Positions 24,536 through 63,751 of a stretch of DNA of 64,000 bases are shown here, piece by piece. Each line of letters begins with the position of its first letter. The stretch's first letter is position 1. Under the pieces are notes generated by a model that did no database searches, was not told the origin of the DNA, and saw only the letters and a program-made list of their open reading frames with translations. This DNA comes from Amyelois transitella (lineage: Eukaryota; Arthropoda; Insecta; Lepidoptera; Pyralidae). The stretch lies in the NCBI RefSeq assembly GCF_032362555.1, contig NC_083525.1, forward strand, positions 5,813,501 to 5,877,500. The letters run 5' to 3'. A program made the translations under genes and the position numbers.

Positions 24536-26514
24536 ATGTCGTTTTTCGCTTCGCTAAATCGCAATGTCTTCAAACGCACATCGACATTTGCTTTAGTTGT
24601 GGCTTCTGGATCGTTCTTTTTTGAAAGAACATTCGATTTAGTCTCTGTATCCATTTTCGAAAGCATCAACAAGGGTGTAAGTATTTTATTATGTAATGCA
24701 TTTTGTTCTACCTAATGTATTATTTTACTTTAAGTTTTCCCTTAAAACTTCGCAAGATTAACTAGCACCCGCGTATTGCATAAAAAAATATTCACATTTG
24801 TTTTCTGCCCATAAATTATAACACTCCTGCTCTTTTAGATTTTGTTAGATTTTTAATGTAAATTGCATAATAACTTACAATCTTGCAAACATAAGTACAT
24901 AAAAAGCTCGCCTCTTTCCCGAAGGGTTAGGCAGGTATTACATCCAACTGCCACAATCCATGCATACATACGAGGGGTGATCCAAAAGTAATGATAATCA
25001 GTTATTTCTAGTGCACAAAGAAATAAAAAAAATATGTCAGCCACTTGCTCAGTTATCCACTAGTTCAGGTAAAAAAAATCATATAAATAGGTCACGATTC
25101 CCGGGAGCTACATTCATTTGAATACGAACAGTCAAGGAGTGAACATCAAAATGGACAAAAACGAAATCAGAGCCGTGATTAAATACCTCTGCTTGAAAAA
25201 AATGTCTACCAAAGACATACACAGCGACCTGGTGGAAACATTAGGGGACTCTGCTCCTCCATATTCTACAGTTGCACGCTGGGTTAAGGAGTTTAAGCTG
25301 GGAAGAACATCGACGGAAGACGAACACCGCGAAGGACGCCCATCGACCTCTCTCACTGAAGAAAATGTGAAAAAAGTTGAAGAAGTTATATTGGCAGATC
25401 GAAGAGTGACTATTAGGCATGTAGCTGAGGTCACAGGGATCTCATATGGCAGCATTCAAAGAATCCTTACGAACGAATTGCATATGAGAAAGGTCTCCGC
25501 GCGTTGGGTACCGAAAATGTTAAACGACGAGCAAAAGAAGAAACGAATCGACATGTCAAGAGCAAATCTCGAAAAGTTCCAGGCAGACAAGGAAAATTTT
25601 TTGTCACGTTTTGTGACCATGGACGAGACCTGGATCCATCACTTTGATCCTGAAACAAAACAGCAATCGATGACATGGAAACGAGCCGATGAACCGACGC
25701 CGAAGAAATTCAAAATGTCAAGCTCAGCGTGGAAGGTTATGGCGTCTGTTTTTTGGGATGCTGAAGGAATAATCATGGTGGACTACTTGGAGAAGGGGGC
25801 CACTATTACAGGCTCTTACTATGCAGAACAAATAAGAAGATTGCGGGAGGCTATTAAGGAGAAAAGGCGAGGCAAACTGCGGGCTGGAGTGCTGTTCCAT
25901 CAAGACAACGCACCGGCTCACAAAGCTGCAGTTGCCATGGCTGCCATTCAAGAAGCGGGCTTTGAGCTGGTGGAACACCCACCTTATTCACCAGATCTAG
26001 CCCCCAGTGACTTCTATCTCTTTCCTCGACTCAAGGAACACCTCCGGGGCAAGAAATTTGACGATGATAGCAATGTGATGGCCGCGGTTGACGAGTTTTT
26101 TGAGAGTCAGGATAAAGAATTTTTTTCTAAAGGTATTTTAGGTTTAGAAAAAAGATGGACTAAATGTATAGACTTGCTAGGAGACTATGTTGAGAAATAA
26201 ATTTATTTATATAATATATTCATTGTATTTATTATTGATTATCATTACTTTTGGATCACCCCTCGTACTTCTTTCATTTCATCCACACTTTGCAAAATGG
26301 TCTTTCACTTCACTTCACTATTTAATATTATGGCTCCATCTTTCAACAAATGATGAACATGGTCTTTGAATTCCTTGTAACAGATACAGATGTCAATGTA
26401 TGTAAGGCGACACTTACATGATATTTTGAGTGCTACAATAGGCATAAACTGCTTTTTAATCGTAATTTTTTGTTACAGAAACTATGGAATGATATCAAGG
26501 ACAAATATGAATAA
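24536..26514 (+). CDS. Uqcr10: Cytochrome bc1 complex subunit 9 (UQCR10)
   Basis: A small single-pass subunit of mitochondrial complex III in the inner membrane. Two exons: 24536-24676 (47 codons) and 26479-26514 (11 codons and stop), giving 58 residues. Sequence: MSFFASLNRNVFKRTST, a hydrophobic span FALVVASGSFFFERTFD, then SIFESINKG joined to KLWNDIKDKYE. It matches the family pattern FRRTSTFAL...FFERAFD...INEGKLWKHIKHKYE. The splice is in phase 0 with GTAAGT and TTACAG. Its 1.8-kb intron contains a complete mariner. The Drosophila orthologue is known as ox. Confidence 0.94.
24905..24968 (-). repeat. Old RTE-like LINE tail, split by the mariner
   Basis: CGCCTCTTTCCCGAAGGG... and CCACAATCCATGCATAC are a decayed copy, in reverse, of the LINE 3' end seen at 36302 and 47404. 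The matching continuation (CTTCTTTCATTTCATCCACA) resumes at 26268, on the other side of the mariner, so the mariner landed inside this fragment. Confidence 0.7.
24971..26265 (+). mobile_element. Mariner transposon, complete, in the Uqcr10 intron
   Basis: 1,295 bp with identical 30-bp terminal inverted repeats (24971-25000 and 26236-26265, beginning CGAGGGGTGATCCAAAAGTA) flanked on both sides by TA, the Tc1/mariner target duplication. It carries an uninterrupted transposase. Identical ends and an open frame suggest recent insertion. It interrupts an older LINE fragment and lies in the sense orientation of Uqcr10. The subfamily is not assigned. Confidence 0.96.
25151..26200 (+). CDS. Mariner transposase, intact D,D34D
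   Basis: 349 residues from MDKNEIRAVIKY; an in-frame ATG at 25118 would add 11 residues, but the chosen start fits mariner N termini better. An N-terminal helix-turn-helix pair occupies about 1-110 (YSTVARWVKEFKLGR, then TIRHVAEVTGISYGSIQRIL). The catalytic triad is D in VTMDETWIHH, D in FHQDNAPAH, and the last D of YSPDLAPSDFYLFPRLKEHL, 35 positions after the second, i.e. D,D34D. No frameshift or stop. Likely capable of activity, but this cannot be shown from sequence. Confidence 0.96.
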   Translation: MDKNEIRAVIKYLCLKKMSTKDIHSDLVETLGDSAPPYSTVARWVKEFKLGRTSTEDEHREGRPSTSLTEENVKKVEEVILADRRVTIRHVAEVTGISYGSIQRILTNELHMRKVSARWVPKMLNDEQKKKRIDMSRANLEKFQADKENFLSRFVTMDETWIHHFDPETKQQSMTWKRADEPTPKKFKMSSSAWKVMASVFWDAEGIIMVDYLEKGATITGSYYAEQIRRLREAIKEKRRGKLRAGVLFHQDNAPAHKAAVAMAAIQEAGFELVEHPPYSPDLAPSDFYLFPRLKEHLRGKKFDDDSNVMAAVDEFFESQDKEFFSKGILGLEKRWTKCIDLLGDYVEK

Positions 26515-43911: not shown

Positions 43912-44998
43912 TCACAGTTCATCTTTGGCTGCACTAATGTGTGCCAACTGGAATGCTTGCAAGATATTGGTTCTAATTCCTAGCTCTTTCTTCTTCTCCT
44001 CAGATACTTTCCCACTGAGTATCTTCTTTACTCTTTCGCTTTCACTTTTAATGAAGTCATCCCCTTTTTCTAGAATCTTGCTCATTATAGTCTTATAGAC
44101 TTTTCCGGAGGCAGCTTCCTGTAAAAATATTCCATTTTAATATCCCAGAGTAATAGCAAGAGACTACATTTCCACATGCCATGATACATAGCATACTTCT
44201 CACATTCATTTAACTTTTTATACAAGTCTGGCAGTTCTTTAGGGAACTCTTGACCTGAGCCTACACCAGTACTCCCCAGCTTATCAAGATATGTTTAAAT
44301 AATAAAACCTTATTCATTTCTTTTTTTTTGTGTTTGATTAACATTTACTTGACACACTAATGTCTGGAAGCCATTATACACATATATAGATAGTGTTAAT
44401 AACTTGAACAAACATGTTCGGCTAAGTAACTGTCACATGCACTTACTTTGTCTGATAATTTTTTGACATCTTCCTCCAGTTCTTTTAGTATTTTCTTTCT
44501 ATTTTCATTATCACTGGCCTTTATAAATTTGACAGCAAGTTTGTCCAAGCTCTTTACACACCCTGGAAGGCTTAAATATAGGCCAGTGTTTTTACGAATA
44601 AACTTTCGAATTTCGTCACTAGTAAAACCGTTGGAATCGTCAAAGGTTAGCGGCTCATCCTTGCCTTTTAGAAATAGTTTCACGACGGGGAAGTTGTCTT
44701 TCGACGCCCCATATTTGAGCGCTAATTTCTCATTTTCTTTTTCCCCATAATCTTTTACACCAACTTCAGCTATCAAAAGTTCGTCCACATCTTTCGCGTC
44801 CTTTGCAAGAGCCACGAAAGCGTCGTGTTTGTCGCCATATGGAAATGCGACGTCGAATTTCACAAGAGAAGCATCGAATTTACTTGTTATTTTTTCAAAC
44901 GAAAGCTCATCCAATTCCACTGATCCAGAACTTGAAGTGGAAGCGCTATAACTGGAAGGAGCTGTTATGAAGAGACACAGGAGCAAAAGCCGGTGCAT
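43912..44998 (-). CDS. wbl: ERp29 / Windbeutel ER chaperone
   Basis: An ER-lumen PDI-related chaperone; Drosophila Windbeutel escorts Pipe to the Golgi. Two exons: 44447-44998 and 43912-44118, joined in phase 0; 252 residues (human 261). Signal peptide about 1-18 (MHRLLLLCLFITAPSSYS). The thioredoxin-fold b domain has ASLVKFDVAFPYGDKHDAF, LLIAEVGVKDYGEKENEKLA and GLYLSLPGCVKSLDKLAVKF. The all-helical D domain in exon 2 has VYKTIMSKILEKGDDFI and KKELGIRTNILQAF. The C terminus is KDEL, a canonical retention signal. No CxxC motif is visible in the thioredoxin fold, as in mammalian ERp29 and unlike what I recall of the Drosophila protein. Confidence 0.95.
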
Positions 44999-46824
44999 GG
45001 TCGGCTGTCGGTTTAAAGGAACAAAATAAATAAACGGGTAAATGTGCTAAGATATACAATGTTTTTCAAGTAGCTTAACTATTTATTACACTTTCACCGG
45101 TAAAGTTACCAATATAAATTACAAATAAATATAAACAAAATTCCGTTCGTTTGCCTAAAGTCAAGTCAATCACTGCTTCACTGAACTGAACTGACGTTAC
45201 TAGAACTAGTTACTACTGTCCTGCTGGTTGCTACTGTCACTGTCATTGTCGTCTCTATTCCGTTTTCCCCCTAAGAATTAATACTTTGACACTCATTATT
45301 ATTTTATTTAATAAAGTTTGTGTAAATAAAAAAAAGGATACGTTTTTAATTCGTATTTTAAATAACAAATCACTAACATATTATGAAGTACAACATTGTA
45401 ATATTAAATAGTGTGATATAAAGGTTGATTTGAAAATTTTCTTCTGTAAGCTGAAACGTGTTATTCTTGATACACCATTGGACCACAATGGTGTACCGTG
45501 GATTATTTTGATTGGCTTCTACACAATAGGAGATGCCTGATTGGTCGTAGATGTGAGGAAATTCCTGAAGGAAATTCGTAACTTTCGTAGGTGTGATTCG
45601 TAGCAAATGTAGAACATCGTAGACGTATCTACGAACAAATATGTAGTATATTTGTAGCAGAATATTGTTTTTCTTGGTCGGGGGCTAATAAAATTTTATT
45701 AGTTAACTTTAAAGTCTTTGCTACCTTTGCCTTGGAAAACGTTGGATACATGTATGTAAACGATATGGGGGTTGCTAAAAAGCTTTTGATTATACCTATT
45801 TAATTTTTGGAATAGTCGTGTCTAAAGTAGAAAATCGTCTGCCCTTTTACAAAGTAAATTAAATCCAGGGAAATTCTAATGCAAAAGTATAGGTACTATG
45901 ATATGGGAGAAAGAAAAGGAGTTCTTTTTTAAGAAATAACGTGTAGACAGAACCACATTGTAACACGCCACGTTGAGGTGATGGCTTGATATTGTGTCGT
46001 GTGGTTCTTGGCTATTTAGAATAGCACCACTCCAAACCTTTCCTATGGGTGACGTAAAAGACGACTAAGGGAATTGGAACACATTCATCTAGTGCAAGCT
46101 TCCATGTTGGTGTGGAAGCGAAGAAAAAACATAGTGTGTGTCAGCTGCATCTCTTCCCATCTTCCCATGCAGATTGTAAAGTCAATCACGGGATTGGCTA
46201 ATAAACTTGGTATTCTTCATTTAGGCGTTGGGCTAGTAACCTGTCATTATTTGAATTCCAATTCCTTCATCAAGCTATACAGCTGAACGAACGTGGCCTT
46301 TAGGGCTTTTGGCTGTTGGCTCTTTTAACCACACGGCGAAATCTAATTAATGACTAGGCCATGTTGATACTACCGGTACTTGCTTTGGTTGTAAGGGAGA
46401 ACGACGTAATTATATGTATGTAGGGGAAAAAGATTTAAGTGACAAAAGTTAGTGAAAGTTAAACAAATAATAACAATAAAATGTTTTAACTCTTCCATGA
46501 TTTACATGCTTAACCCGTGCTGTTTCGAGCGTGCTATATAGTGCACACTGCATAGTAGAGTATTAAAATCTTCCCTATCTCTTTCCCATCCCATTCAACC
46601 CTAATGGTTAAACTCACAGTTGGAAAGAGAGGGAAGATAAGACATATTAAGCCTTATCAACGATCGTGAATTATCCTATTGGCCGGGTGATATGAATTCT
46701 ATTTCATATTTTTTATTGTTGCTGATATTTTATCAGAATGAAAAATTACTGTAACGCAATATCTAATAATAAAATATACTCATAAAAATATCATTTTATT
46801 TAGAGTTTTGAAAGGATTGAGGCT
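44999..46824. other. ERp29 promoter side and upstream DNA of the micro-exon gene
   Basis: ERp29 and the micro-exon gene diverge across 1.8 kb. The section holds an inverted copy of the 'GGGGTAGACAGAGCC' repeat (45993-46325) and otherwise unrecognised AT-rich DNA. Confidence 0.45.
45993..46325 (-). repeat. SINE-like repeat, 'GGGGTAGACAGAGCC' family, reverse
   Basis: Reverse block order: GTGTCGTGTGGTTCTTGG, CCACTCCAAACCTTTCC, ACGTAAAAGACGACTAAGGG, GGCGTTGGGCTAGTAACCTG, AGCTGAACGAACGTGGCC and GGCTGTTGGCTC. It includes an extra ~100 bp in the middle. Confidence 0.65.
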
Positions 46825-49800
46825 ATGTTACTGATTTTTAAAATATGTTGCATACAATTTTTCTTTTTTTCTCTTGTTCATACGAAAAATTCCACTGTTC
46901 AAAGCGTTCACAAGAAACGTGTTTTGAGAGATGATTATGGTTCGTATTTTTGAAAGTTCCTACTTGAAAATCTAAATAATACAATATATGTATATAATCA
47001 AGACTTTCTCCCCTAAGAAGAGAAACAAAGTATTAACTTAGGCTAGAGTTTTGAAACGTCTGTAAGGTCATATTCATTGATATTCAAATAGTTACAGGTT
47101 GCTAGCAATCGTCTTAACGTAAAATCAATTTTATTAACATATCCCTTTTTTATAATATATGTATAAGAGAAGCAGCTGGCACACATTATGTTTTTTAAGT
47201 TAGACTTAGGACTTGTTTTTTCATAGGCCAAGTAGAACCAAGAAAATAATCAGTCAACCATGAGAAATAAATAATTAATATAATCGAAAACTACAAAAAA
47301 AATTATTTATAGGCATATCTACATAAATTAAAAATATGAAAAAACATACATAAATATTACTTTCCTGAGTAAAAAATGTTGAAAGGATGTAATCCCGTCT
47401 TAACATACATACATACATTAAATCACGCCCCTTTCCCGGAGGGGTAGGCAGAGACTACATCTTTCCAGTTGCCACGATCTCTGCATACTTCCTTCGTTTC
47501 AACCACATCATCATCTTCATCCCGTCTTAACCACTGCTTACTTATAAGTATTAAAAGGAAATTTTGATCAAATTTATGTTTCTATTCCAGACGATAATTT
47601 TCCAGTTTGTAAGTATCTACACTACACACATCACGTTTTTATCCTCTACGGAAAAGGCAAAACCAAGAGTCGCGTGAGAGTCGAAGTAAAGCATATGTAG
47701 GAATTGAGATTCAGGGATAGCGACCGGTTGCACCATGTGATATGTCTAAAGACTTTCTTATTGTTGACTTTTTGCGTGAAAAAAAGACACAGACGTATAT
47801 TCTACGTATACATACAATTGGCCCAGTAGAGTTTAGAGCGAATCACTTTATTTTTTTTCTTTTAAAAAGTCTTGTCATTGAACCAAGCCGTCGGCAAGAA
47901 AATGCGATGGCGTATAAAATTTCCTTTATACCGGTTTTTTTGTTCATGTGTGATTATAGTGATCATTCGGAGCTCATCGCCATTAAATTGAAAGCTAAGG
48001 ATAATATGGAGATGTTGTCACCACAGCTTTAAAAAAAAGTTGTTCGATTGCGTTAAAAGTCACACGTTACCAATTTATTCAGTAAAATGTTTGTAACGCA
48101 ATAAAATTTTACACCTTTTGCAGTGAAGGATATCGGTAAGACAGGCTTAAATTTTCAATTAATCAAATGTTATGAATGTGTATTTTTTATTTAATCGTTT
48201 AATTCAACTTTTCAAAGATTTCTTTTATGATTAATGTGATTTATTTCTTTATAAATCTCATACACACCCGATAAATAAATAAATATGTAAGTCAGGTACA
48301 AAGTAGTAAAGGTATTACTCGGTGCCAACGTTTTATGCAATTCGCACCGTATCTATTTTAAAAAGGAATAGGTATTATTTATTGTAGTATTTGTGCAGTA
48401 ATTTGTAGAGTCGCCATTCGAGTGCAGTACGCAAGTATGTACCTACCTACTCTTCTAAACTAAGGTACAGTTATAAAATGTTGTTTGCTAAATAAACTCG
48501 TAATAACACTGGAATATAATTACAGAGGCGCAAATCAGTAAGTATTAATAAAATTATGTACTCCCCATCTGATAATCATTCAGATTTCTGTACTTCACTG
48601 ATAATCAAAGATTATTAGGTTTAGATTTGAAATAAGAAATATTTTTTTATTTGTGTAAAAATACTTTTAGTACCAGTACTTAAATAGATATATTAAGCTT
48701 TATTGCAAATGTAAAAAAAAATACCTAGTATTAATCTGTAAAAATAATAGTTAGGTACATATTTTATCTACCCTATATATATTTCAATAAATTTTTTTTC
48801 TTCAATTTCCAGTTCAAGAAATAGGTATGTATGTTCTTTTAAGTTCTTAATGACGGCCTTCGCGGCGCAGCGGCAGTACGCTTGTCTGTGAGACCGGAGG
48901 TCCCGGGTTCGAATCCCGGCCAGGGCATGATGAGAAAAGAACTTTTTCTGATTGGCCTGGGTCTTGGATGTTTATCTATATAAGTATTTATTATAAAATA
49001 TAGTGCCGTTGAGTTAGTATCTCGTAACACAAGTTTCGAACTTACTTCGAGGCTAACTCGATCAGTGTAATTTGTCCCGTATATATTTATATTTATATTA
49101 TCGAATGTAGGTATAATGAGTATTAAAATAAATTATTTATTTACAGAGCAAGAAGATCCTAATGGTAAAGTTTTTTAAATTATTAACTTTGGGGGTCCAG
49201 TTTTGATAATTTTAATGATGAGAGCCAATTAGCTTAAACACGTTCGGATGGGGTGTCCCGTGGCTGACCCTTAATAAACTGGTATGAAGATATAGATGTA
49301 TGACCATGCCATCTCCGCCGCGTTCAAGTATGGGTAGATCGAAGAAATTATACGCGTAGCTAAACGGTGTGAAGGATGACAGCGAACCAGCTTTTTAACA
49401 CTGGGGATGCCTAACAGTGGGCTTGACTGGCCTGAATAAGGTGTAGAGGATGCAACCAGGAATACATGAACTAATTAGGTAGGAGAAATAAAAGTGTAAA
49501 TGGGGAGAGTAAAAAAGACTGTGAAATTAATCAATAGAGAATGAGTTTTTATTAATAAGTAAAATATTTTAAACTCTTTACAGTTCTGTCATCGGGTCAT
49601 GAAATGGGTGCGTTGGTTTTATTACAATTTCTATTAATCATGTATTATTTTAAACACACACATCGACATGACTAAACAATTATAACAACGCAGATATAAA
49701 AGGGTGCCTTAGGACTCCGAGCGAACCAAGACAGATTCCAATTTAAAAATTGGCGCGAGCGTGCGTCTCCGTAGACCATGACAGATTCGGAGTTCGGATA

Positions 49801-52800
49801 CAATTTTTAAACCATAAAAACGCTCTTGGTATTTAAATATGTTGTAAATGGTTGAATAAAAATTTGTCCTTTAGCAAAACATTTACATTATGTAGTCTGA
49901 ACAAATAATACATAGAGGTCGCTAACATTTTATTAAGTCGATGAAACAAAAGAACTAGGCAAGGCGATTGAAAAAGACGTCTCTCTGTCTACAGGGAAAC
50001 GGGTGTGATTTCATTTATTTATGTAATTTATTTAAAGAAATATATTTATGTACGTCTAAATAGACGTAAATAAATATTAGCACGAAATGTTTTTGTGGTT
50101 GCCTGGAATAGAGTGAATAATGCGATAAGGCCGCCTTTTACTTATGTAAAAGTTTAGGATAAATTTATTATTTCAACTTTATGTGCAATAAATAATATTC
50201 TATTTATCTATCTATCTTTTTTTTTCATTGCTTAAAAACGGAGATTTGACTGTAATTTATTTCAGATATGGGTGATTTTGCTTTAATACTGAAATGCGTG
50301 GGAAAATGCTTGAAAAATACTGATAAAGGGGATGCTCTGATACAAGAAGGTCAGTATTATTTTAATTACTTATTATTATTCGCTTTACTAGCGTTATGAA
50401 ATTCAGTTGTCGCGTTCTTGTGGGAATTTCGGACAATGCTCATAATTGCTTCTATAGATTCCCTTAGAAACGAACGGGCATTTAGCGTCACTCAGGACTA
50501 TTAAAACCTGAGCATATATTGTTTGATTCACCTCCAATATATCATGTAGTTGGAGTCTTTGCTTAACTTCTCGCCGTTTGTTTCACCTATGTTTATTAAA
50601 TAACGATTATTGTTATTTGCAGGTTCAAAGTGTGGTAGGTGCAATAAGTAACTTACTTTTATTTTTTGAATAATTATATAAAAAGAAAAACAATATTTCA
50701 TTTGTTATTTTTTTTCACAGAAAAGAAGTTAACAATTAAAAGTGAGTTTTATCGTTTTTATTTTTGCCGAAATGTTTTAAGCATATAAACACATTTTCCA
50801 TAACACATCCACGTGCAACGTTAACTGGAATAGACGTTGGAAAAGATGGAAAACATTGATGGAAACATGAAAAAAATTACATTCCAGTTGATGATCAAGT
50901 AGTAAATGCAAATATGTAGGTAATGTCACTTTACGTCACTATACATTGCCTGTAATATTTAAAGGGTTCCCTCGATTTCTTTATGTTCTTTTATATGTTC
51001 TTTGGTATGGAATCACCCAAAAATTTTAAAAATGCTACTTAACAATAAAAACCCTCAAAATGAGATTATCATTCTGATAGAGATTATCGTTGGCCGAGTA
51101 ATCCCATTACAAATATTACATTATTAGTTTGTTACATTTACATTACATTCGAATTGAAAGAAACGAATTAATTTAAACTACATATACTTAGGTATGAACT
51201 CAAAATATATATTATATTTTTTCAAAGTTAAAAAAAATATTGTTTTTTTTTCAGAGTTATCATGGTGGAGAACCATTTTAGAAACTGTTAAAAATGCAAT
51301 TTTCCCAGGTATGACACAATATTAACAAAACTTTCTGGTCTTATGTTATAAAGAGAAAAGATTTGTATTTTATTTGCTACGATTGTACTGAAAAACTTTT
51401 CTGTCCCTTCATCTCTTTTCTCTGTTAATTTTTTTAATTCTTGGTGTGTTTTATCGGTTACTTTTTGCTTCATTTGATCAAAATTTTTATTCTTGCTCTT
51501 CAAGTCGTCTACATGTCATTCATGTTCATGTGTGATTTCTACTACTGGACCGATTTTGTCGAAAATCAGCATAGACATTCAATAACATATGGAATATTAG
51601 TTTGAATATTAACCGATGTTCTTACGGTAAGGGAAAATATCGTGAGGAAACCTGCACATTCAGGCAACTGGATGTGTAACTATGATCAATCCAGTACCGG
51701 GGTAGGTTTCTCTTCAAAGGTTGCGAAGGTCAGACGGGAGGCGCTTCGTGTAAAAACCCGACTCACTTCATCCAGGATCCATGGTCCATACCCCGGGCTC
51801 CTCTCCAGAGTGGTGAGGATGCAATCGGGACTATAGACAGAAAGAAGATTAAATAGGATATGCTACATTTTATTGAAATTTACATAAGAGTAAAGCCCTG
51901 CGCAAAAGCGCAGTGTAGGTAATCAAAATAATTGTATAATACTATACTTTCTTACGATTACATGCTTTGTCTACTCAACAGACTTCTTAAAATGACAGCC
52001 TAATAGGAGTCTCCAAAAAGGCTTTCATGGCATTAATTCAAAGAACTGTTTCCCATGAGTATTATTATTAGAGGGAAAGGTCGGAATGGGAAGATCTAGA
52101 CGAACGTATCTTGATCAAATTAAGGACGTACTGGTAAAGGGTCAGGTCAAAAGTACCCGAAACCGCCGAGCTTGCATGAAGAGAGTTATGAATGTGGATG
52201 AAGGGAAGGAAGTATGCAGAGATCATGGCAAGTGGAAAGAGGTAGTCTCTGCCTACCCCTCCGGCGTGATTTTATGTATGTATGTATGTATTATTATTAG
52301 TTCTACACTTTAGAATATGACCACTCTATATCTTTCCCACAGACCTGCACATGCACACCTACACCTGCCACTATTTCCCATTTGAACCATAAAGCTTATT
52401 GTGGCCTTTCAGAATTGTTCAAGTAGTAAGATGTCTATCCCGCAATGGATATAGACATGATTATATTATACGTATGTTACCTATTATCTCCTTTTACCTA
52501 TTCGGAAATTTAAAATGGCTAAAATAATTATGGATAATCGAATATAAAAATCTTAAAAGGAATACATATTACGAACCCAGTATTTTTCTGACTTGACAAT
52601 ATTTGTACTTCTTGGCACCAGCAACAAAATGACTCATTAGAAATAAGCATTATACAATTTTTATGAAACAGGAAATAATATATATTTTGGCAGGTTCAAA
52701 AACAACAGCAGAAATAACAGTAATGACTTCGACGACAACATTTACAGAAATTCCATATGAAGCAATAGAAACTGAAGAAATAACTGGTAAACAATTTTTT

Positions 52801-55800
52801 AGAAATCAGGACTGGGCGGTTTGTATAAGACAGGGTTTTCAAAATTACCGTTAATTTAAATAGAGTCTTAGTTTAAATAAATATATGAATTTATTGTGAA
52901 AAGAAAAACCGAAAAAAAACCTTCTTCATCAACAACTTGTAAGGTGAACTTAAAAAGGATATTTTTCAAATTTATTTGTTGGCAAATAGTATCAGATTTT
53001 TATAATCAAATTTTACATTTTGTTATAGATGTGCCCATAACAGAACCACCCATAACAGAACCACCCACTACAGAACCGCCCACAACAGAACAACCAGAAG
53101 AAACAACATGTGGTAAGCCAGAGCTAAAATAAATATTTTACTTCGTTTAATGAAATAATGTGGTTAGATAACAATTTGTTGACCCCAATTTTGTTGCAGA
53201 TAATAAATCTTCCAAATGCCCACGGCAAACAAGAACTGGTAAGGGTGAATAATGTGTATATTTTGACCCTATTTGGATTATGGTTTAAACAGTTTGGAAA
53301 CCTGGAATTACCTACATAATCTTTTTATACGATCTGCTAAAACTTGGGATTCTCATCCGCGCCTCGTTTCCTCGATATCTGCAACTTGGAAATTTTTCAA
53401 GGCAAATATGAATTTTATTTGAGATTAGGTTTTATTTGAGATTGCGTGTACTACCTTAGACCTTATTTTTCTGACCATTATGCAGAATAAGGCCAAACGT
53501 ATTCAAATTTCTATTGAAATAAAATTGTATGTGATTTTTTTAACCAATTCTCGTCAATTTTTTTTGTTGCAGTTAGATCAACACGGCGGCCAATAACAAG
53601 GCCAGCAAGGCCAACAAGGCCAACAAGGCCAACAAGGCCAACAAGGCCAACAAGGCCGACAAGACCGCCAAGAATGAATCCAAGGAAGCCAAAAAAACCA
53701 ATGCCTCAAAGACCAACATTAAGACCTAAACCAGGTGAGGATGAACTTGCAAACTACAAAATGACCTCGGCTTTAAATTTGGGAAAGCGGAATTAAGTTT
53801 AATTTTAACACACAGAAAAATTTTAACACAAGGTAATGACCTTATTTTTCGATTAATGCCGTTTGTCAACGCCATCTTCGGACTTAGGTTTGTCACTTAT
53901 ATCCGATTAATATCTCTCTCGCAGGAAAAGAGTGACAATTCATTTGCGGAAAATTTATTATTCTTTATTAGTTCAAAAGAATAGCGTCTGTGCGTTTTTA
54001 GTGTTATGTCAAATGAGTGTATACCAAAGGGCTTCAAATGATATTCATATAGAGAATAATAATTATGTACTTAAAAAATTCTGTATTAAAAGAGGTTAAC
54101 CAAACTTTAAAGAGGAAACTGACTGACTGTAAAAATCTTTTGTAAAAAAGATAAATCAACCGAAATAACGTATTTTATTACAGGTGGACCAACTAGCCCA
54201 GCAATAACAACTGGTAACTTTTCATAAGACTCCCTTTTAGATTCAATTAAGTTTTCACACAGTCGTTTAAAAAAATTTAACAAGTTGTTTTCAACTTTTA
54301 ATTAGCCCGCACGTAGATTTATGAATGTGAATATAGGAGAGTCAGAATGATGTAGTATCTGTTTACACCTTCGAGAAAATTGGCTTCATGCATATATTAT
54401 GTACAATTCAATATTTTAAGGTATTAAAGGTACCTACTTAGTGGATAGATTTGTAATATTTTATTGTAGTAAGAAGATATGTCAGAATTTGAACTTCCTA
54501 AAATAAAATTATATTTTGTTACAGATGAATTTACATCAAAATCTACCAGAGTTTCTTATCCACCACCAAAAGGCATTGGTACTACGTTACGTAGTTTTAC
54601 TGTTACAGTTTTATATGTTACACACGCTAATATACACACACACACACACTTTTCACGTATTATCCCTTACAGAAGACCAGTCGGTCATCTTATGGTGGCG
54701 TATGGATTGAATAATATACATATGTATATGCAACAACACCAATAGCCCTCCATGACCTTGCTGGGAAAATTCTTCCTTCTGTCTATTCCAACTTTCTCTA
54801 TTCTACATACATATATAGACATGTCTATATCCTTTGCGGGGTAGACAGAGCTAATAGTCTTAAATTTAAGGCCACGTTCAGCTGTGTGGCTTTATGATAC
54901 AATTGAGATTCAATTAGTGATAGGTTTCCAGCCAATCGCCCACAAGAGTAATACCAAGCCCATCCATTACTCGCCTTTCACGATATCCATGGAAAAGATA
55001 TGGAGTAGTTCTATTCTAAAGTGTCGGAAAACACACGACACAGTATCACTTTCTAGGCCAACGCAATCCAGTTTTTAGGTTTTTGTACTGTAGGGGGTTG
55101 TCCATTAATCATGTGATCTTTTTTTACCCTTTTTTTAACCCCCCCTCCCCCATTGGTGATACGTAGTGAGGTTTAAGACCACCCCCCCCCTCCCCCTTCT
55201 CAACATCACGTGTATTTTAGTACCTACAAAAATCTTAAAATTTTCTGAATATTATCTTAATTTAAATACAGGTACAAACTATAATCTTATTTTATTCTGA
55301 AATTAAGGACCATAATAAAAATGTCTACACCAGGTTGCAAGTTTTTTTTTTATTGCCATAACAATAATAGAAATGAAGAGTGTAATCATTGGAAAAACAT
55401 GTTATGAGTATGTTTAATGTATATTGTCCTCGGACCATGGATTAGCAAGACATTCTTCAACACTAACAACTGGATAAGCATCTTGCAGGTCAGTTGTTGG
55501 TACTGTGCTTTGTTGAAAATCAACATCGGTTTCATCAAGCCACTCGGTGTCATCATTTTCGCGCACAACGCACAGAATTTCTTTCGATCTGCCGATTGAT
55601 CGTCGCGTGAGGATGCGTGAAGGACGAACATTGTGCATCTCTACGCTATTACTGCTGCTCGGATTAGGTTGCTTGTGACATGAATTTACATGTTCCTTAA
55701 CTTTCTTCTTTGTACAGAAGTACAATCCACACCACTGGCACGTCCTTTCCAAAAGTTGCCGACGATCCTTTTGCAGACTAGGGCAATACAGGTCATACGG

Positions 55801-58800
55801 CAATTTGTTAAAGCCATCATGCGTTGGGGTGATTCCAAGAGACCGACGCAGAAGAAATGTAGCAAACGTCTTGCCATCATGCTCTTGAGGCTTCGGAATA
55901 TATAGACCACTAGACGACTGCAAAATTGGGTAAGGAGGAATAACGAAGCGTTCAGGAAGAATAGATCGAAGAGAACTCCGCAAATCTCCACAGCAAGCGC
56001 GGTCATCACACTTTACCACCTGGTAATGATATTAAGATATCTTAATCATATTAGATAAGAAAAGTAAATGATAAAATAATAATAAATGAGATTTTACTAA
56101 TGTACCTGAAGCAAATACTGGCTCTCTCGCACATGCTCGCTGTACCACTGCAGAGAAGGCAAGTCTGGAACAAAGCTTTCAGCAGTGTCATCGGGCTTAA
56201 GGTACTCTGCTACGACGTCATGGCCGTCGATAACCATATTATTCCATACTTCTGCGAGAACTTCTCCAGCCTTCTGAAAGTTCATTTTTTCGAGATCATG
56301 ATCCTTTGTTCTCCCTTGTTCATCCAAATGAGTTCCATAAGAATCATGCGGAAGTATGAGTCCAGATAATTCCCGGCTTAAAGGCGCCATTCTTCTCTCA
56401 ACACGGTTGAATGCGCTTCTGCCGGGTGCATTCGTAAAAATGAATATTGCATCTAAATCATGCTTGACAAAGTGGTGTATGGCATGGGAAATAACCTTTG
56501 GATATCTCGGGTTTTCATCGGGTCCTCCATCAGATGAAATCAGAACAACTGGTTTCAGGCGTCCTTCTTCATCCCGCATAATTTCCTTGAAATTGTTGAG
56601 TGTAGCAAGCTTATTGAAGTCCACAGCATGAGTGGAAGCTGTCGAAGAGGAATGTTTGCCACTTCTAATCGCCACGTATGTTGGCCCTGAATAAGTAATT
56701 GCTTCAGCACGGCCCATGTCATTTCCTTTTATGATGCACCCAGCATATACACTAGGGATCAATTTGTGCCTTGTAGCAATCACCCAATCATGATCAGGCA
56801 ATGAGACACGATATTCGACATGCATCAGGAGAGGAGCTTGTTTATTTGCCGCTGTCAAACCTATAGGTACCCGGGCTTTATCGTCTTGAGACAAAAAAAA
56901 CACTTGTTTTGGCCCGAGAATAGATGCCAGCGTTTCCAAGGATCTTATTGTGGCGACACAAAAATGTTGATCGACATGAGCCTTGTGGTGATCTGCCTCA
57001 GGGCGACTCAATTTGACAGGCACAGTGACTACATGCCTTTTACCCTCCAAGGTGGTATAATTTCTAGGGAGCAATCGAAGATACGTGCCACTCTTCGAAA
57101 TTTGAAATCCGTGCTCCTTTAGCTTTTCATGGAGGTCAGTAAGTGTTCGGCAACTGCGAACAATTTCTGAGCGACGCCGTTCCTCCGCAGAAGCACCAAA
57201 CATAGCCAAATCGACTATAGTTTTTAGCAATTGCGGTTGTTGCTCTTCTAGGCGTGGGCGACCTGGGGCAGAACGCGCCTTAAGAAGATCAGCTACAATC
57301 GGACTCTGATTGCAAGCAAGTTTAATCTTTGATTTTATTGATAATCTATGTGACTGGGAGTGACGCATATGTTGTTCCTTCTTCCGTAGTTCTTTTGTGC
57401 ATTTATCAATTTCTCGGCGCAGTTTCGTCACATCACGTGTCTCATTTTCGCCCAGAAAATCCCTACGACGAACAGCTAAGTCCAATTCCATTTGAAGAAG
57501 AGAAATCTGATTCTTCAACTTATCCTGTGCAGGAGTAGCACGTACAGGCTGCAGTATAGAGCTGCTTGTACTTGGTGTATCGGGTGAATTCTCGTTGCTA
57601 CAATCCAAATCTTCACCTTTACGTTTCCGAGCACCTGGAATGACCGACATTTAAACAACAAGAAAACATTGAAATTCTTAATTAGAATTATAATAATACT
57701 AGCTTTTCGCCCGCGACTTCGTTCGCGTAGACTTCAGGTTATATCACGCTTGGAAAAATTTCGCGCATTAAAATTTTGACGTCGAAAGCGTACCAGACAG
57801 ACAGACTTTCGCATTTATAAGATTAGTAGGAATAAATAATTGGCTGCTTAAATAATTACTGATATTGCGAATTTGGTATGTTTATTACCTGTTGAGGTGC
57901 TTTTAGTAGTGACATTACCTTCGTCAGTAATTTCGGTACCGATCGGTAAGACGCATATCGCAGGCGTAGGAAGTTTTACAGGTAGATTTGGCTCATTGGA
58001 TGTCATTGGCAAAACAGAATTATTTTCGCTGGCATTCTGAAAATTAATAATTTAATTAATATCGTGAAAGTAAAGATAATATCGTGCAAACAAATTAACC
58101 ATGTCCAGTAATGTTATTTTTTCTTTTATTAAAATAAGAGTTCGAAACGGCACACAAACCATGCACAATCCTCGCATTTTCACTAGAATAATGTGTATAT
58201 AATTATATGTAGGTATGATCCATAAATAGTTGTAAGTTTTCACAAAGCGACAAGATATTAGTATATAAACAGGCGCAAAATGTGTAACAATAGTAACATA
58301 ACCTTCACCTTATAACCACCACCGCGACTTACGGTTTATTTTGTTTTTTTACGTTAGATAAACCCATGCCTCATAGACATGGTTCTCAGCTCAATACACC
58401 TACTTCTTTAGAGTTCAGCGATCGGTGATATGTAGGCATATGGACCACGTGATGTTTATTCAGCATTTTTTATGGAATGACATTCCTGTGCGCCAATGAC
58501 TAGCTAAAACTATTAAAAATCTAGAAATTTTTTGAATAACTTTTTTATAATGTAAAAATAAAAAAAAATCTTTTGGATTTAAGTAATACTTAAAGTACGC
58601 TATACATATTTTATCTATATTTTTTCCTTAAATTACCTATCAAAAATGTTGGAAGACTTAACAATAACATTTATATTACAAATCCATACTAATATTATGA
58701 ATGTGAAAGTCTGTCTGTCTGTCCGTTCTTCACGGCTAAACCGCTGGACCGATTTTTATGAAATTTGGTATGGAAATAGTTTGATACCCGGGGTCAAACA

Positions 58801-61800
58801 TAGGCTACTTTTTTTTTCAAAAATGAAAGTTACTATGAAAAAAGTCGCGGGTGAAGCCGCGGGGCAACAGCTAGTAAACTATAGATGAAGTCGTATTTAT
58901 TAGGACAACGCCCTTAAACAGACAAATACTAGTTTAATAGCTTACCTTTTTAGAATTAGAGCAATAATAGAGAATATTGGAAGACTTCTTTGCTTGGTGC
59001 TTTCGGCGGTAATCTGCTAGAAGATCATTCGCCCACTTCACAAATTCTTGTTTTGTAGAATATTTTTGTTTTGCATTAGCCCACATCTCATTAAATTCTT
59101 TCTGAGCAATACTAGGTTTTTTTCCTTTCTTATACTCGGCGAAAAGGTCTTTATACAGATCACCTACTTTAAACATTGTTTTAATGAAAAACGGTAACGG
59201 TTTACGCATGTATTCGGCGCCAAAACAAGAGAATAACTGGCGGCCGGCGGCGGCGCGGCGCATGCGCGTGAGGCCTCCGTTCTTTGCCTGGCAACGGCGA
59301 GTCAAGACCGCGCCGTGCCGCTTAATATTTGTTTAAAAATCGCGCGTTTGACGAAAAAATAAATACACGAGATATTTTACTACTACCCCCCACCCCCCTT
59401 GTGATATTTTCGTGATTTTTATCAAACCCCTCCCCCCCCTTTGAAGCCTCACGTGATTAATGGACAACCCCTAGGTACTTAATATCATCAACTCATCCAG
59501 CAGTTGGATGTCCTACGCTTAGTTGAATCTCTATCAGAATTACCTTTTCGCTGAAAGACAAACACTTTTATTTATTAAAATTATATATTAAAATTACCTT
59601 AAAAAGACATGAAAGCAAGATTCCTAGATATCCACAAGACAATTCAGCTACATGACATAAAATCAGATAGCCTTCTCAGCAGAAAGTCAACTAAGCTTCG
59701 TTTACTATTCCTTGGATACCATTTCGGTGGCAAAAAAGATAGCAGGCACAAATCTTGTCTCTAATAATTAACTATTATCAGTACGTCTACTTACCTACAA
59801 ACTTTGAAAAACCATACATATATCGTTTCCCCTTTCTAGTTCTGCCTATATTTTGATTCCGACGCAGATTTAAAAATATTACTTGAGATTTCGGGTACCT
59901 AGTTAATATCTATCTTAATTGCCGTACTCGTACGTGCCGTACGTAAACGACTCTATGTCGTGATAAAAAGTAGAATTATTAATATTTCAGATTCCACCGA
60001 AGCACCATCATATACAGAAAGCTCAACAAATGGTAAGAAAATCAATCAATAATTTACGTAAAGCTCTGTGGGACGTACAGACAATTCGAAGAATTCATTA
60101 ATATTGTCATTATTATTGTGCCGTGTGGTTCCCGGCAGAAAAGAAAATGATCACTCCATTTCATTTCAATGGATGTCGAAAAAGCGACTAAAGGATAGGC
60201 TAAGAAATTTGGAATTCTTGTAGGCCATACATAGGCTAGCAACCTGTCACTATTTGAATCTCAATTCCATTATAAAGCCATCAACTGAACGTGGCCTTTT
60301 GTTATTATTCATTATTAAATTGTTATTTTTTCAGATGATTTTGAAACACCACCCAATACTGAACAGTCACCAATTGGTAAGAAAATGTGTTATACATCCG
60401 CAGATTCACCCGCGAGAATTGAGCGCCACCTAAAAAATATAGGGTTCTTTTTAAAAATCCCGCGGGAACTTTAGTTTTTACCGGGATACAAGAAATATTT
60501 CCTTCTTCGTAATCCACATTATATGGTGTGTTTGTTTAGTGGTTTTACTGTGAAGAGGTTACAAACAAACAAACACACTATCGCGGTAATAATACTCGTA
60601 TTAGTATAGATGTACCTACTCGAGTAAAATACCGTAATTTATTGTACGGTGTGGGCCGTACAATAAATTACGGTATATATACACGAAATTAATTGATTTT
60701 CTACCATTTTGGTTAGAAGATACTGAGAACATTTTTAAACTTTCTAAGTTCTTTTGGCATCAAAATTTAAACAAAAAGTAGGAAGCAATGAAAATAATTG
60801 CGAAGTATGCCTATTTTGGCACTGAAAGCGCAAGTAAAGTATAAAAAAAATCTCAACGTCTATGAACGTATAATTATTCTCGACATAGGTATTTGTTGTC
60901 CGTAATTAAGGAAATCAATTCCTTTATTATTTCAGATGATTATGCTGAAACAACATTAAATACTGAACAGCCAACAATAGGTAAGTTATAGCTAGGTTTT
61001 ATACCAGAAAGCGCTGAAATAACCGACATAACAAACATGTTATCTGAAGTTTAAACTAATATTTTCTATGTAAGACCTATGTATAAATTCCCGACATAAA
61101 TATTTGTTATCTGTTAATAAGGAAATCAAATCGTAATTATTTCAGATGATTATGTTGAAACACCATCATATCCTGAACAGCCACCGATTGGTAAGAAAAT
61201 GTACTCCGTCCGCTAAAAAATATACGAATTTTATTCTAAGGCTCATACCTAAGCAGGCACTGATACGACGGGTTACTTTGATTTGCATAAAATTTGGTTG
61301 ATACCCAGGAAATTTTATACTTATCAATTTCGATTATATATTGCTGTAGATGTACAGTTGCATACAAAACGAAAGACAACACTGTAAGTACAGTGTTGTC
61401 TTATATATATTTTGTTTACCTTTAATTTCAGTACTTTATGGGATGGACCATAGTTTCCAATTATTTGCAAATGGTCCTTTTAAATTCGTTTCAGATAATA
61501 CGCGTGATATACCTCCAGACATAAATACGCAGCCACCATCAATCGGTAATGACTATTATCTTACTTTTTAATTTACTAATATTATTAAGTAAATACAAAA
61601 GATTGTGAGTATGAAAAAAAAATTCTATTCAGAAAACAAAATGTTATTATTTGGATGATTCTTTGCTGAGAATTCAAGCTATACTTTATTAAATAGCAAG
61701 TTATATCATATTAACATACCATTACGTCTTTATCCCTTAGTGGGTAAACAGAGCCAACAGTTGAGTATAATGGGTTTAATAATGAAATGAGATTCAAAGG

Positions 61801-63402
61801 ATTAGTCCATCGTCTTCTTAGACGATGGACTAATCCTTTGAATCTCATTACTCTTTACTCTTGTAAAGACCAAAGAAAAAGATACAATCTGCGAAAAAAC
61901 AGAGTTTTTTTTTCGCCATACCAGCATGAAAGCTAGACTATAGATATTATAATATGAGATAGTTGTAGACTTTTCCGGCGAAAGAGAAATTTAAGTACAT
62001 ATTAAACATAAAGATATCAGCTAAGTTGAGCTACTCAAGAACGTCGACAAGGCATATTATGTCTTGTTTTCTTAGTTTAAATGGAGGGATAATTAGTCAA
62101 TCATTAATTTGTCTTATTTTTATCGAATGGATGACAAGGATGTTTATCGGAAAAAATGTTTTATTGCAGGGACCACGAAAAAGAGAGGTTTGACAAAAGG
62201 TAACAATTTAAAGCTTATAATTTTTTTATTCCGACTGCACTTGTGAATCGACCAAACTTCGTCTTGTAAGATATGGAAGTATTAGCATTTTTATAAGTGA
62301 CACCGATATACTTGCGCTGAATTCGTACTCCGTACGACCTAGGTCGTACCGACTCGGACAGACTTTGATCAAATAAAACCAGTTCAGCATGCGGCCGACT
62401 GTTGGCGGCCAGCGACTGATTGTTAATGTTGCCAGTCGTAAGATTTAAAGGCCTTCACACACCTGGCTAAACAAGTATTTCATCGCAAACTTAAACTTAT
62501 TAGACTGTGCAAATTTTAACAAAATCTAGATAAACCTAAAGATTTTGACGCCCAACTAATTAAAAAAATTTATTGACACATTTTTATCTTTATTAAAATC
62601 AGATCTGTGATCGAGTGTCCCTTTTAGTGTGTGCCTATGATCACGCACTATGCATGACTTGGAAAGCTTTATTTGTGCAAAATACCGACTCACTTAATCA
62701 TTGCCTTTGCCATTTCAGATGATAAAATTGGTAAGTTGAATGGCAGAACTACACTTTTTATCTCCCCTACTCAAATTTTGGTCTATCATACCATTAGAAA
62801 TCGGATAGTCTTACATTAATCCGAATTTTTCGGAGTATTTTCATATTTCAGGAGTTGTAAACGGCTGTGGTCCAGGGCACATCCTCACCTCACTGGAAAT
62901 GGGTTGATGAGTCAAGTTTTTAACACTAAGTGACTCTCCTTTGACTTCTACGCCATTTGCAGGGGAAGCTAACTCATATAGCATCATGGTATAAGCTGAA
63001 AAATGTGCATTTTCGCCTTTAACGACATTCAAGGGAAAGAAAGAGTAGTGGTTCTTTTCTAAATAGGAGGGAATTACACTCACGGAACTTAAATTGCTAA
63101 ATTTTTGTCTTTTTAGTATACCTATTTTTCTATATTATCTGTTTGTTAATTTCTTAAGGTTGACTTGTTGAGAATGCTATCGTATGCTATATATATCTTC
63201 TATTGTCACTTTTTTCCCAATAATTTTATATGAATAATTTGATCTTGTGTTTAAGGGTGCAGCTTATATGACGCGGGAAGAATAATAGAAAATGTCGGAA
63301 TATTAATTCAAAAAGCAGTAAAAGGTTTCAGGAATTCAAAGCTCACCAAACTTAGTTCTGTTGATGTAAATGTAAAAGTAATACAGAAATTGGTAGTTGA
63401 AG
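46825..63402 (+). CDS. Putative secreted protein from a micro-exon gene (24 exons, partial)
   Basis: Unrecognised. Exons: 46825-46939, 47591-47608, 48124-48135, 48526-48537, 48813-48824, 49147-49164, 50266-50349, 50623-50634, 50721-50741, 51255-51308, 52694-52786, 53029-53112, 53200-53238, 53573-53734, 54184-54213, 54525-54578, 59991-60032, 60335-60376, 60936-60980, 61146-61190, 61495-61545, 62170-62199, 62719-62730 and 63256-63402, continuing past the window. All introns are GT-AG and all in phase 1; the joined frame is open for 411 residues. Exon 1 gives a signal peptide (MLLIFKICCIQFFFFSLVHT) and a KKR site; its donor (GTTCGT) is weak. Exons 2-6 are 12-18 bp and acidic. Exon 7 has KCVGKC. 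Exons 11-12 are Thr/Pro/Glu-rich, exon 14 is a basic TRP repeat, exons 17-21 repeat D-[DSN]...-[TS]-[EQ]-Q-P. Exon 24 starts GCSLYDAGRIIENVG. Micro-exons 2-6 are the least certain; missed exons are possible. An extracellular role is inferred. Confidence 0.75.
47404..47518 (-). mobile_element. RTE-like LINE tail with 12-bp target duplication
   Basis: 115 bp in reverse: (CATA)n, TTTCCCGGAGGGGTAGGCAG, GCATACTTCCTTCG. Flanked by perfect ATCCCGTCTTAA repeats (47392-47403 and 47519-47530). In intron 1 of the micro-exon gene. Confidence 0.9.
48852..49087 (+). repeat. tRNA-type SINE, full head and body
   Basis: The head has an A-box-like GGCGCAGCGGCAGTACGC and a B-box GGTTCGAATCCCGGCC. The body has GGCCTGGGTCTTGG, TATCTATATAAGTATT and GAGTTAGTATCTCGTAACAC, and ends TTTGTCCCGTATATAT. 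The same family as the deleted copy at 12040. It sits between exons 5 and 6 of the micro-exon gene. Confidence 0.85.
51610..51845 (+). repeat. tRNA-headed SINE, 5'-truncated
   Basis: Begins within the body (CGATGTTCTTACGGTAAGGG, AAACCTGCACATTCAGGCAA) and runs to CCCCGGGCTCCTCTCCAGAG and GGATGCAATCGGGACT. In intron 10 of the micro-exon gene. Confidence 0.7.
52072..52288 (+). mobile_element. RTE-like LINE tail with 12-bp target duplication
   Basis: 217 bp starting AGGGAAAGGTCGGAATGGGA and encoding [20 protein letters not shown] and [13 protein letters not shown], ending (TATG)n. Perfect TATTATTATTAG repeats at 52060-52071 and 52289-52300. In intron 10 of the micro-exon gene. Confidence 0.9.
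53596..53667 (+). repeat. Coding 9-bp tandem repeat, eight units (Thr-Arg-Pro)
   Basis: ACAAGGCCA repeated eight times with a few changes, in frame within exon 14 (53573-53734) of the micro-exon gene. It encodes TRP-ARP-(TRP)6. The units are nearly identical at the DNA level, so slippage or recent expansion is likely. Confidence 0.9.
54819..55042 (+). repeat. SINE-like repeat, 'GGGGTAGACAGAGCC' family
   Basis: TTTGCGGGGTAGACAGAGCT, GGCCACGTTCAGCTG, ATTGAGATTCAATTAGTGA, CGCCTTTCACGATATCCATGG, GGAAAACACACGACAC. Just left of the Zator-like element, in intron 16 of the micro-exon gene. Confidence 0.75.
55414..59176 (-). CDS. DDE transposase of the Zator-like element, four exons, intact
   Basis: Exons, 5' to 3': 58946-59176, 57889-58036, 56106-57634 and 55414-56019; 2,514 bp, 837 residues, all phases closed and no stop. 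The start is set at MFKVGDLYKDLF; upstream in-frame ATGs reach 59305. A coiled-coil region follows GARKRKGEDLD (LKNQISLLQMELDLAVRRRD). The RNase-H-like core shows acidic candidates in FFLSQDDKARVPIGL, ISSDGGPDENPRYPK and NRVERRMAPLSREL, a DDE-like arrangement, plus SGPTYVAIRSGKHSSST and ILPHDSYGTHLDEQG. The last exon has a C2H2 finger, CQWCGLYFCTKKKVKEHVNS-CH. The exon 3 acceptor is the CATTCCAG at 57635-57642, inside what would otherwise look like an ATG-started ORF (MSVIPG). Introns contain copies of a short common repeat (57703, 58671). Confidence 0.85.
57703..57845 (-). repeat. Common moth repeat (CAGACAGACAGAC family), short copy
   Basis: ACTAGCTTTTCGCCCGCGAC, GTACCAGACAGACAGACTTT, CGCATTTATAAGATTAGTAG. 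In a transposase intron. The same ends occur, inverted, at 58671. Confidence 0.65.
58671..58876 (+). repeat. Common moth repeat (TCTGTCTGTCTGT family), full-looking copy
   Basis: CATACTAATATTATGAATGTG, GTCTGTCTGTCTGTCCGTTC, CGGCTAAACCGCTGGACCG, ATGAAATTTGGTATGG, then GTCGCGGGTGAAGCCGCGGG and the end CAACAGCTAGT. Partial relatives at 6235, 23925, 34975 (reverse), 57703 (reverse) and 63752. The transposition class is unknown to me; no TIR or coding potential. Confidence 0.7.
60118..60300 (-). repeat. SINE-like repeat, 'GGGGTAGACAGAGCC' family, reverse
   Basis: GTGCCGTGTGGTTCCCGGCA, AATGGATGTCGAAAAAGCGA, GGCTAGCAACCTGTCACTAT, CAACTGAACGTGGCC. Between exons 17 and 18 of the micro-exon gene. Confidence 0.7.
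60629..60676. repeat. Perfect 21-bp inverted repeat
   Basis: Arms 60629-60649 and 60656-60676 (starting ATACCGTAATTTATTGTACG), loop TGTGGG, between exons 18 and 19 of the micro-exon gene. Confidence 0.95.
60881..61195 (+). repeat. Tandem duplication of an exon with its flanking intron
   Basis: 60881-60985 and 61092-61195 align through about 55 bp of intron (CGACATA-GTATTTGTT, TAAGGAAATCAA), the 45-bp exon (ATGATTATG-TGAAACA) and the donor. This is a direct trace of exon gain in the micro-exon gene. Confidence 0.85.
61373..61402. repeat. Perfect 13-bp inverted repeat
   Basis: AAGACAACACTGT, loop AAGT, ACAGTGTTGTCTT, in intron 20 of the micro-exon gene. Confidence 0.9.
61722..61815 (+). repeat. 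Decayed 'GGGGTAGACAGAGCC' repeat fragment
   Basis: ACGTCTTTATCCCTTAGTGG, GTAAACAGAGCCAACAG, then GAGATTCAAAGG and GTCCATCGTC. It supplies the left arm of the 30-bp hairpin. Confidence 0.65.
61786..61849. repeat. Perfect 30-bp inverted repeat, 4-nt loop
   Basis: Arms 61786-61815 and 61820-61849 (starting AATGAGATTCAAAGGATTAG), loop TCTT. Part of the left arm (GAGATTCAAAGGATTAGTCC) derives from a decayed 'GGGGTAGACAGAGCC' repeat, and the right arm is its exact mirror. Confidence 0.97.
62838..62998 (-). repeat. tRNA-headed SINE, partial, reverse
   Basis: CCAGGGCACATCCTCACCTC, GATGAGTCAAGTTTTTAACA, GACTTCTACGCCATTTGCAG. Between exons 23 and 24 of the micro-exon gene. Confidence 0.6.
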
Positions 63403-63751
63403 GTAACTATTTGTGATAAATGGAAAAATCTTTAGTACATTGTTAATCCAAATCAGCTCGCCAGAACACAAACATACATTCTATGCGAATGGGCGTATGT
63501 CTAAGGGCGCGTGCAGCGTGCCGGTGACTTCGTCCAACCGAGGTCTGACCGACTCGGACAGGCTGGATCAAACGTGTGTAGTTAAACGGCGCAGTGCAGC
63601 GTGCCACAGACCGACGACTAGTTTTTTAATATGAAACAGGACAGCGATAGTTTTCCGCGCGAAACGGTGTCCCACGTGCCATGTTACGTAAGCTGGACAA
63701 CCATTTCAAACTGCTATGTATGGCAAAGACAACTGACTTTTAGTAATTCAT

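Follow-up and report, generated by a model that had tools for sequence, protein, structure and literature searches.

A phase-1 micro-exon array in Amyelois transitella and the degenerate astacin domain encoded downstream of it

The exon array at the locus

We analysed a locus of the pyralid moth Amyelois transitella that lies at positions 46825-63402 of the + strand of a 64,000-nt stretch of DNA (hereafter the window; contig positions 5813501-5877500), where 25 exons separated by 24 GT-AG introns join into a frame of 419 residues without a stop. All introns are in phase 1, every one of the 24 falling between the first and second base of a codon, and exons 2-25, measuring 12-162 nt with a median of 40.5, are all multiples of 3; 11 of the 24 non-first exons do not exceed 30 nt and 17 do not exceed 51 nt. 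The first-pass annotation of this DNA had proposed an all-phase-1 micro-exon gene with a signal-peptide-like start and with 23 introns, 22 internal exons and a joined frame of 411 residues; these counts differ slightly from ours, and the proposal itself is borne out by the chain score and phase tests given below, exon-sized repeats having been seen as well. For analysis beyond exon 25, 230 kb downstream of the window were added, window-scale numbers continuing past 64,000, and genome-wide searches were made in the 327-Mb assembly of 33 contigs.

Splice sites were scored with insect consensus weights untrained on these data, and acceptor-donor pairs were counted in the region 46901-63500 at a spacing of 9-170 nt and scores of at least 3 (acceptor) and at least 2.5 (donor), with seven region/strand sets inside the window and Markov simulations serving as controls for the pair and chain tests. 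The lengths of the strong pairs, taken modulo 3, were distributed as 18/2/2, the averages in 200 Markov simulations being 2.06/1.67/2.08 with a maximum of 7 symmetric pairs, and the seven control sets when pooled gave 15/23/20. Other thresholds or an intron-only donor score resulted in counts from 25/5/6 to 10/2/5, which point in the same direction less sharply, and exclusion of the intronic transposon described below left 15/1/1 (binomial P 4.5e-6). When the 15 symmetric pairs were read in the three phases, 14 were open in phase 1, six in phase 0 and four in phase 2.

Automatic chaining of exons gave a best score at the locus of 68.6 in phase 1, 24.9 in phase 0 and 15.8 in phase 2, the first of these values still counting three exons inside the transposon which were left out of the gene model. 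Control scores stayed at or below 17.0 in the seven in-window sets, had a mean of 3.2 and a maximum of 18.7 in 100 simulations, and did not exceed 19.0 among 180 local control scores over 294 kb of contiguous chromosome, locus windows omitted. By chain score the locus stands alone within the surrounding 294 kb, and chance is rejected as the source of the window's exon array. Automatic chaining picked up 18 of the 24 non-first exons, and the remaining six, exons 2, 4, 12, 17, 22 and 25, were added by eye. Several splice sites are weak, namely the donors of exons 1 (-0.3) and 17 (-3.2) and the acceptors of exons 4 (-1.2) and 25 (-2.3), so that individual borders may be misplaced although the array as a whole is real.

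Exon 1 (46825-46939), with the ATG and a phase-1 donor, encodes a hydrophobic, signal-peptide-like protein start (MLLIFKICCIQFFFFSLV) and ends in KKRVLRDDY; thereafter come short micro-exons of acidic character, Cys-containing helix-like pieces, TEPP repeats, RPT repeats and repeat exons of the DDYxET type. The next six exons encode DDNFPV (exon 2, 47591-47608, 18 nt), LKDI (exon 3, 48124-48135, 12 nt), EAQI (exon 4, 48526-48537, 12 nt), IQEI (exon 5, 48813-48824, 12 nt), EQEDPN (exon 6, 49147-49164, 18 nt) and VLSSGHEM (exon 7, 49584-49607, 24 nt). Exon 8 (50266-50349, 84 nt) contains an amphipathic helix-like segment with two Cys, and it is followed by exon 9 (50623-50634, 12 nt, GSKC), exon 10 (50721-50741, 21 nt, EKKLTIK), exon 11 (51255-51308, 54 nt, KLSWWRTILETVKNAIFP) and the Thr-rich exon 12 (52694-52786, 93 nt). 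Mucin-like TEPP repeats occupy exon 13 (53029-53112, 84 nt) and RPT repeats exon 15 (53573-53734, 162 nt), with exon 14 (53200-53238, 39 nt, DNKSSKCPRQTRT) between them, and exons 16 (54184-54213, 30 nt, GGPTSPAITT) and 17 (54525-54578, 54 nt, DEFTSKSTRVSYPPPKGI) precede the intron that holds a transposon. Beyond it lie exon 18 (59991-60032, 42 nt, DSTEAPSYTESSTN), the repeat exons 19 (60335-60376, 42 nt, DDFETPPNTEQSPI), 20 (60936-60980, 45 nt, DDYAETTLNTEQPTI) and 21 (61146-61190, 45 nt, DDYVETPSYPEQPPI), exon 22 (61495-61545, 51 nt, DNTRDIPPDINTQPPSI), exon 23 (62170-62199, 30 nt, GTTKKRGLTK), exon 24 (62719-62730, 12 nt, DDKI) and finally exon 25 (63256-63402, 147 nt), for which two helices are predicted.

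The predicted stalk is rich in Thr (12.9%) and Pro (12.5%), and Cys occurs at positions 8, 9, 81, 85, 102, 186, 193 and 372 of the 419 residues. Amphipathicity was compared with shuffled sequences for five segments of our own choosing: the helical moment exceeded more than 99% of shuffles for exon 8 and for the first part of exon 25 and about 96% for exon 11, and it was not outstanding for the second part of exon 25 (P 0.18) or for exons 2-6 (P 0.10). A single-sequence structure model of exon 25 contained the two helices at a predicted local distance difference test (pLDDT) value of 70, which was too weak for a fold search. A similarity between exons 8 and 25 was considered and rejected (z 1.0).

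Exons 19, 20 and 21 are duplicates. The peptides of exons 20 and 21 resemble each other with a z of 8.4, and at the DNA level 61081-61195 matches 60868-60985 at 82%, a match which takes in exon 21 with about 65 nt of its upstream intron on one side and exon 20 with its flank on the other; exon-intron units have therefore been copied. Joining of exons in other combinations rarely results in a stop: only 4 of 300 forward exon pairs would have one at the junction, all four with exon 2 as the leading exon, and G is the last base of 22 of the window's 25 exons. Given this small number of junction stops and the phase-1 symmetry, copying or skipping of an exon costs little.

Intron 17 contains a transposon of about 4.4 kb (55093-59471, - strand), which does not contribute to the gene product; it has near-identical inverted termini (GGGGTTGTCCATTAATCA), TA flanks and, on the - strand, a 517-residue open frame for which Pfam gave no family above cutoff. 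In intron 5 the segment 48856-48927 (+) gave a tRNA-His-like Rfam match of 29.8 bits (cutoff 29), which is probably the head of a tRNA-derived repeat.

The downstream astacin domain and its neighbour

The first exon of an astacin domain begins about 4.4 kb past exon 25, on the same strand (67804-67887, phase 1-1), and is followed by a second (68431-68618, phase 1 to 0, weak donor) and a third (69332-69470, phase 0 to 1), with candidates for a fourth within about 70266-70556 and for a fifth from 71194. The joined 201 domain residues match PF01400 at 4.4e-21, 137 of the domain residues are matched by astacins in PDB from 6.4e-7, and 59 of 192 residues are identical to the neighbouring astacin described below. 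Astacins (M12A) are recognised by the zinc/catalytic motif HExxHxxGxxH, the Met-turn SxMHY and the propeptide switch FxGD. Here the zinc/catalytic motif reads HSLLHALGFKDE, the catalytic Glu and the third zinc His being absent, and the Met-turn reads SIMQF; a pseudoenzyme is therefore predicted, and on these residues the gene would be an astacin homologue and not an active astacin.

Between exon 25 and the domain, five candidate linking micro-exons of 12-18 nt were found in phase 1 on the + strand (64974-64988, 65345-65356, 66213-66230, 67425-67436 and 67610-67627). The phase-1 chain that they form from exon 25 to the astacin exon scores 10.6, a value above the maximum of 300 simulations (8.0). 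Outside the locus, 708 overlapping local 4.4-kb window/strand/phase sets all scored lower, the best of them 10.4 in phase 0. When the whole chain is continued as far as 67900, its score climbs from 68.6 to 79.3, the donor of exon 25 is good (4.1), and in the interval 63403-67803 no first exon was found that combines a phase-1 end, a strongly hydrophobic start and a donor scoring at least -1. Because of the chain scores, the phases and the failure to find another start, a single-gene model was adopted, and the array and the astacin domain probably form one transcript.

Searches made with the N-terminal stretch in protein databases covered proteins of 230-733 amino acids, the first scoring the 7994 candidates that shared most words, and among proteins of this size no convincing homologue of the array protein was found; a Clytia match (P0001, 3.6e-3, 8% of the query) appears to reflect low complexity and was rejected. 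A re-ordered query that sidestepped the repeats had none of 171 candidates at E<=10, Pfam returned no family for the array protein, NCBIfam no match for three pieces of it, and PDB two matches at E 0.47 and 0.57. Phage records had no match for the piece spanning exons 8-11, viral contigs contained no relative of exon 25, and a search of the moth's own genome with exon 25 retrieved only exon 25 itself. The first-pass annotation had recognised no homologue of the gene, which holds for the N-terminal stretch among proteins of the size covered and probably fails for the downstream part, given its PF01400 match.

The neighbouring gene, apparently a tandem astacin gene, runs on the - strand from 80822 down to about 72325 and so faces the + strand gene. 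It is predicted to consist of a signal-peptide exon (80822-80741, phase 1), a 246-nt linker exon of phase 1-1, a 135-nt domain exon of phase 1-1 and an exon of phase 1 to 0, and the boundary phases predicted at the start of the domain are the same in both genes, micro-exons replacing the single linker exon in the + strand gene. It seems to carry a second astacin domain, the first domain keeping HEVMHILGFSHEH and the second reading HLFVHILGLDH, in which the catalytic Glu is replaced; this second domain also bears an acidic low-complexity insert, and the FxGD motif was not convincingly present in the neighbouring gene. Over the whole genome the astacin profile gave at least 17 exon matches. HExxH is kept at seven of the nine distinct catalytic sites read around them, both exceptions belonging to the cluster of the + strand gene and its neighbour, and two other astacin loci carry FxGD-like sequences, FEGDM and YQGDI.

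Interpretation and alternative explanations

We consider it fairly likely that the array represents an N-terminal linker, expanded and mucin-like, belonging to a secreted astacin pseudoenzyme. The 25 exons in the window would then be the 5' part of one secreted-protein gene opening with a signal peptide, in which about 29 small symmetric exons, with phase-1 junctions throughout, would encode a stalk of about 400 residues, and this low-complexity stalk, made up of Thr/Pro, RPT and acidic DDYxET repeats and a few Cys-bearing helix-like pieces, would lead into a degenerate astacin domain. It would stand where other astacins have their propeptide and is probably O-glycosylated, and the product would most probably act without catalysis, as a glycosylated matrix, binding or decoy protein in a secretion. 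Exon symmetry leads to a prediction of isoform diversity, exons being possibly skipped or included in a variable manner, and the array could have grown inside an ancestral phase-1 linker, partly by exon duplication. A bolder version is conceivable, if doubtful, namely that an inactive astacin was turned into a display scaffold, its stalk being varied by skipping or duplicating some 29 phase-1 exons, and that protein variation of the micro-exon type has thereby arisen in a third independent lineage; only tentatively, too, can the stalk in that version be ascribed to expansion of the ancestral phase-1 linker beside an astacin paralogue that keeps HExxH.

The features shared with other astacins, the neighbour included, are the PF01400 domain, the succession of signal peptide, phase-1 linker and domain, and matching predicted phases, whereas the loss of the catalytic Glu and the third zinc His, the SIMQF Met-turn and the use of about 29 small exons in place of the neighbour's one 246-nt linker exon set the present gene apart. 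It would work like a micro-exon gene and is best filed as an astacin homologue. The idea in the first-pass annotation of an independent, lineage-specific gene is probably wrong as stated, since the array appears to form the N-terminal portion of an astacin-family gene running on past the window edge. To our knowledge, the origins of micro-exon genes are hard to trace, as no ancestor is recognisable. Here an adjacent astacin paralogue, which has a single phase-1 linker exon, may have retained the ancestral layout, making it possible for a stepwise origin of the array by exon gain and duplication to be tested across pyralid genomes.

A number of observations weigh against this interpretation, and several of them would suit a gene that ends with exon 25, as a 25-exon, secreted, mucin-like micro-exon gene of 423 residues next to a separate astacin gene. 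If the exon 25 donor is not used, the frame ends 12 nt past it at TGA 63414-63416, so that exon 25 could be terminal. Counts of symmetric pairs show no excess over 63410-80000 (4/5/2), a slightly more permissive donor score gives pair lengths modulo 3 of 4/1/2 in 63403-67803, and over 63200-80000 the phase-1 chain (13.1, against 11.8 in phase 0) stays inside the 16.6-kb control range; the five linking exons are only 12-18 nt long and three can be chained in phase 0 as well (7.7). At 64191, a hydrophobic ATG frame could open a separate astacin gene, its sole listed donor being weak (-1.0) and in phase 0. The donor at 68618 is also weak (-2.2) and the better ones at 68676 and 68697 misfit the phase of the next exon, while in the neighbour a rival donor of the linker exon at 79841 would break the phase. 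The linkers of the two genes are unlike in sequence (Smith-Waterman 24, shuffled mean 24.2), and neither a three-frame scan of the + strand nor the 419 joined residues contained an FxGD propeptide motif; DMGDFAL in exon 8, considered as an FxGD-like site, does not match it. Although the database includes proteins of A. transitella, the searches among its proteins of 230-733 amino acids did not turn up one with this N-terminus. Against an end at exon 25 stand the quality of its donor, the linking phase-1 chain that exceeds all simulations and local sets, and the lack of a good signal-peptide exon for an astacin gene between exon 25 and the domain, and we regard such an end as unlikely. A split into two genes at the 5.4-kb, transposon-bearing intron 17, with exons 1-17 in one and exons 18-25 onward in the other, would account for the weak exon 17 donor, for which no better in-phase donor was found; however, phase 1 and composition carry on across both sides, about 4.4 of the 5.4 kb is a single transposon and only two poor first-exon candidates lie ahead of exon 18, making this very improbable.

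Other alternatives concern the kind of secreted protein. Yponomeuta silk mucins, which have 32 and 24 or 25 exons, mucin 1 being said to duplicate entire exons, are evidence that moths possess secreted genes with many exons and with exon duplication (PMC9684489, from the passages available), and the product could accordingly be a silk or labial-gland mucin that coats silk or gland surfaces. Both are moth genes with many exons, whole-exon duplication and a repetitive hydrophilic product, and the stalk is rich in Thr and Pro. In the same passages, however, Ser or Gln is the major residue of the Yponomeuta mucins, which are 985-3262 residues long, Muc1 and Muc2 have about 306 and 118 coding nt per exon (about 50 here) and an astacin domain goes unmentioned; with such a domain likely attached, a silk mucin seems improbable. 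The three-cysteine motif that mucin-1-like proteins are described as carrying is not defined by its letters in those passages (PMC9684489), and the pattern CxCxC is absent from the 419 residues. The open-access literature on sericin and silk contributed the mucin comparison only.

Micro-exon genes (MEGs) have been reported in parasitic flatworms (PMC4350168) and in sap-feeding bugs (PMC9168663), and a salivary effector-type gene, convergent with these and varying a secreted surface through isoforms, was also weighed. According to the parts of these sources that were available, aphid bicycle genes have a secretion signal and numerous internal exons of very small size, almost all of which begin at codon position 2 (PMC9168663), and schistosome MEGs have a signal peptide and an N-terminal coding region of mostly very small symmetric exons (PMC4350168). 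All 24 non-first exons of the window are likewise small and start at codon position 2, sharing the intron phase of bicycle genes, and the signal-peptide-like start, the 24 of 24 non-first exons that are multiples of 3 and the 17 of 24 not exceeding 51 nt recall the MEGs. The bicycle gene-structure classifier (published cutoff 0.72) gave 0.994 with exon 25 as last exon and 0.57-0.98 when another last exon of 400-30 nt was added; with the astacin exons, whose lengths and phase counts are approximate, it fell to about 0.001-0.013. Moreover, the Cys-Tyr-Cys (CYC) motif is absent from the 419 residues, exon 25 is single-copy and without a relative in its own genome, as against 476 bicycle genes reported in one aphid, and MEGs, said in the available passages to be confined to platyhelminths (PMC4350168), are here compared with a gene of a pyralid moth that probably has an astacin domain attached. 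An effector of this type seems improbable. No lepidopteran micro-exon gene turned up in the portions of the open-access literature searched.

Other features of the window

Elsewhere in the window, a mariner-type transposase frame of 369 residues without an internal stop (Transposase_1, HTH_48) lies at 25091-26197 (+). Pfam-matched exons within 1-45046 include those of a clathrin propeller (clathrin heavy chain), UFD1, ARPC4, a Ras/Rab-type GTPase and a GH20 hydrolase, together with BTB and kelch exons, a RanBP1-domain exon and windbeutel/ERp29, the last being encoded at 44396-45046 (-), with its first 184 residues differing from the A. transitella protein at 2 positions and matching Plodia at 85%.

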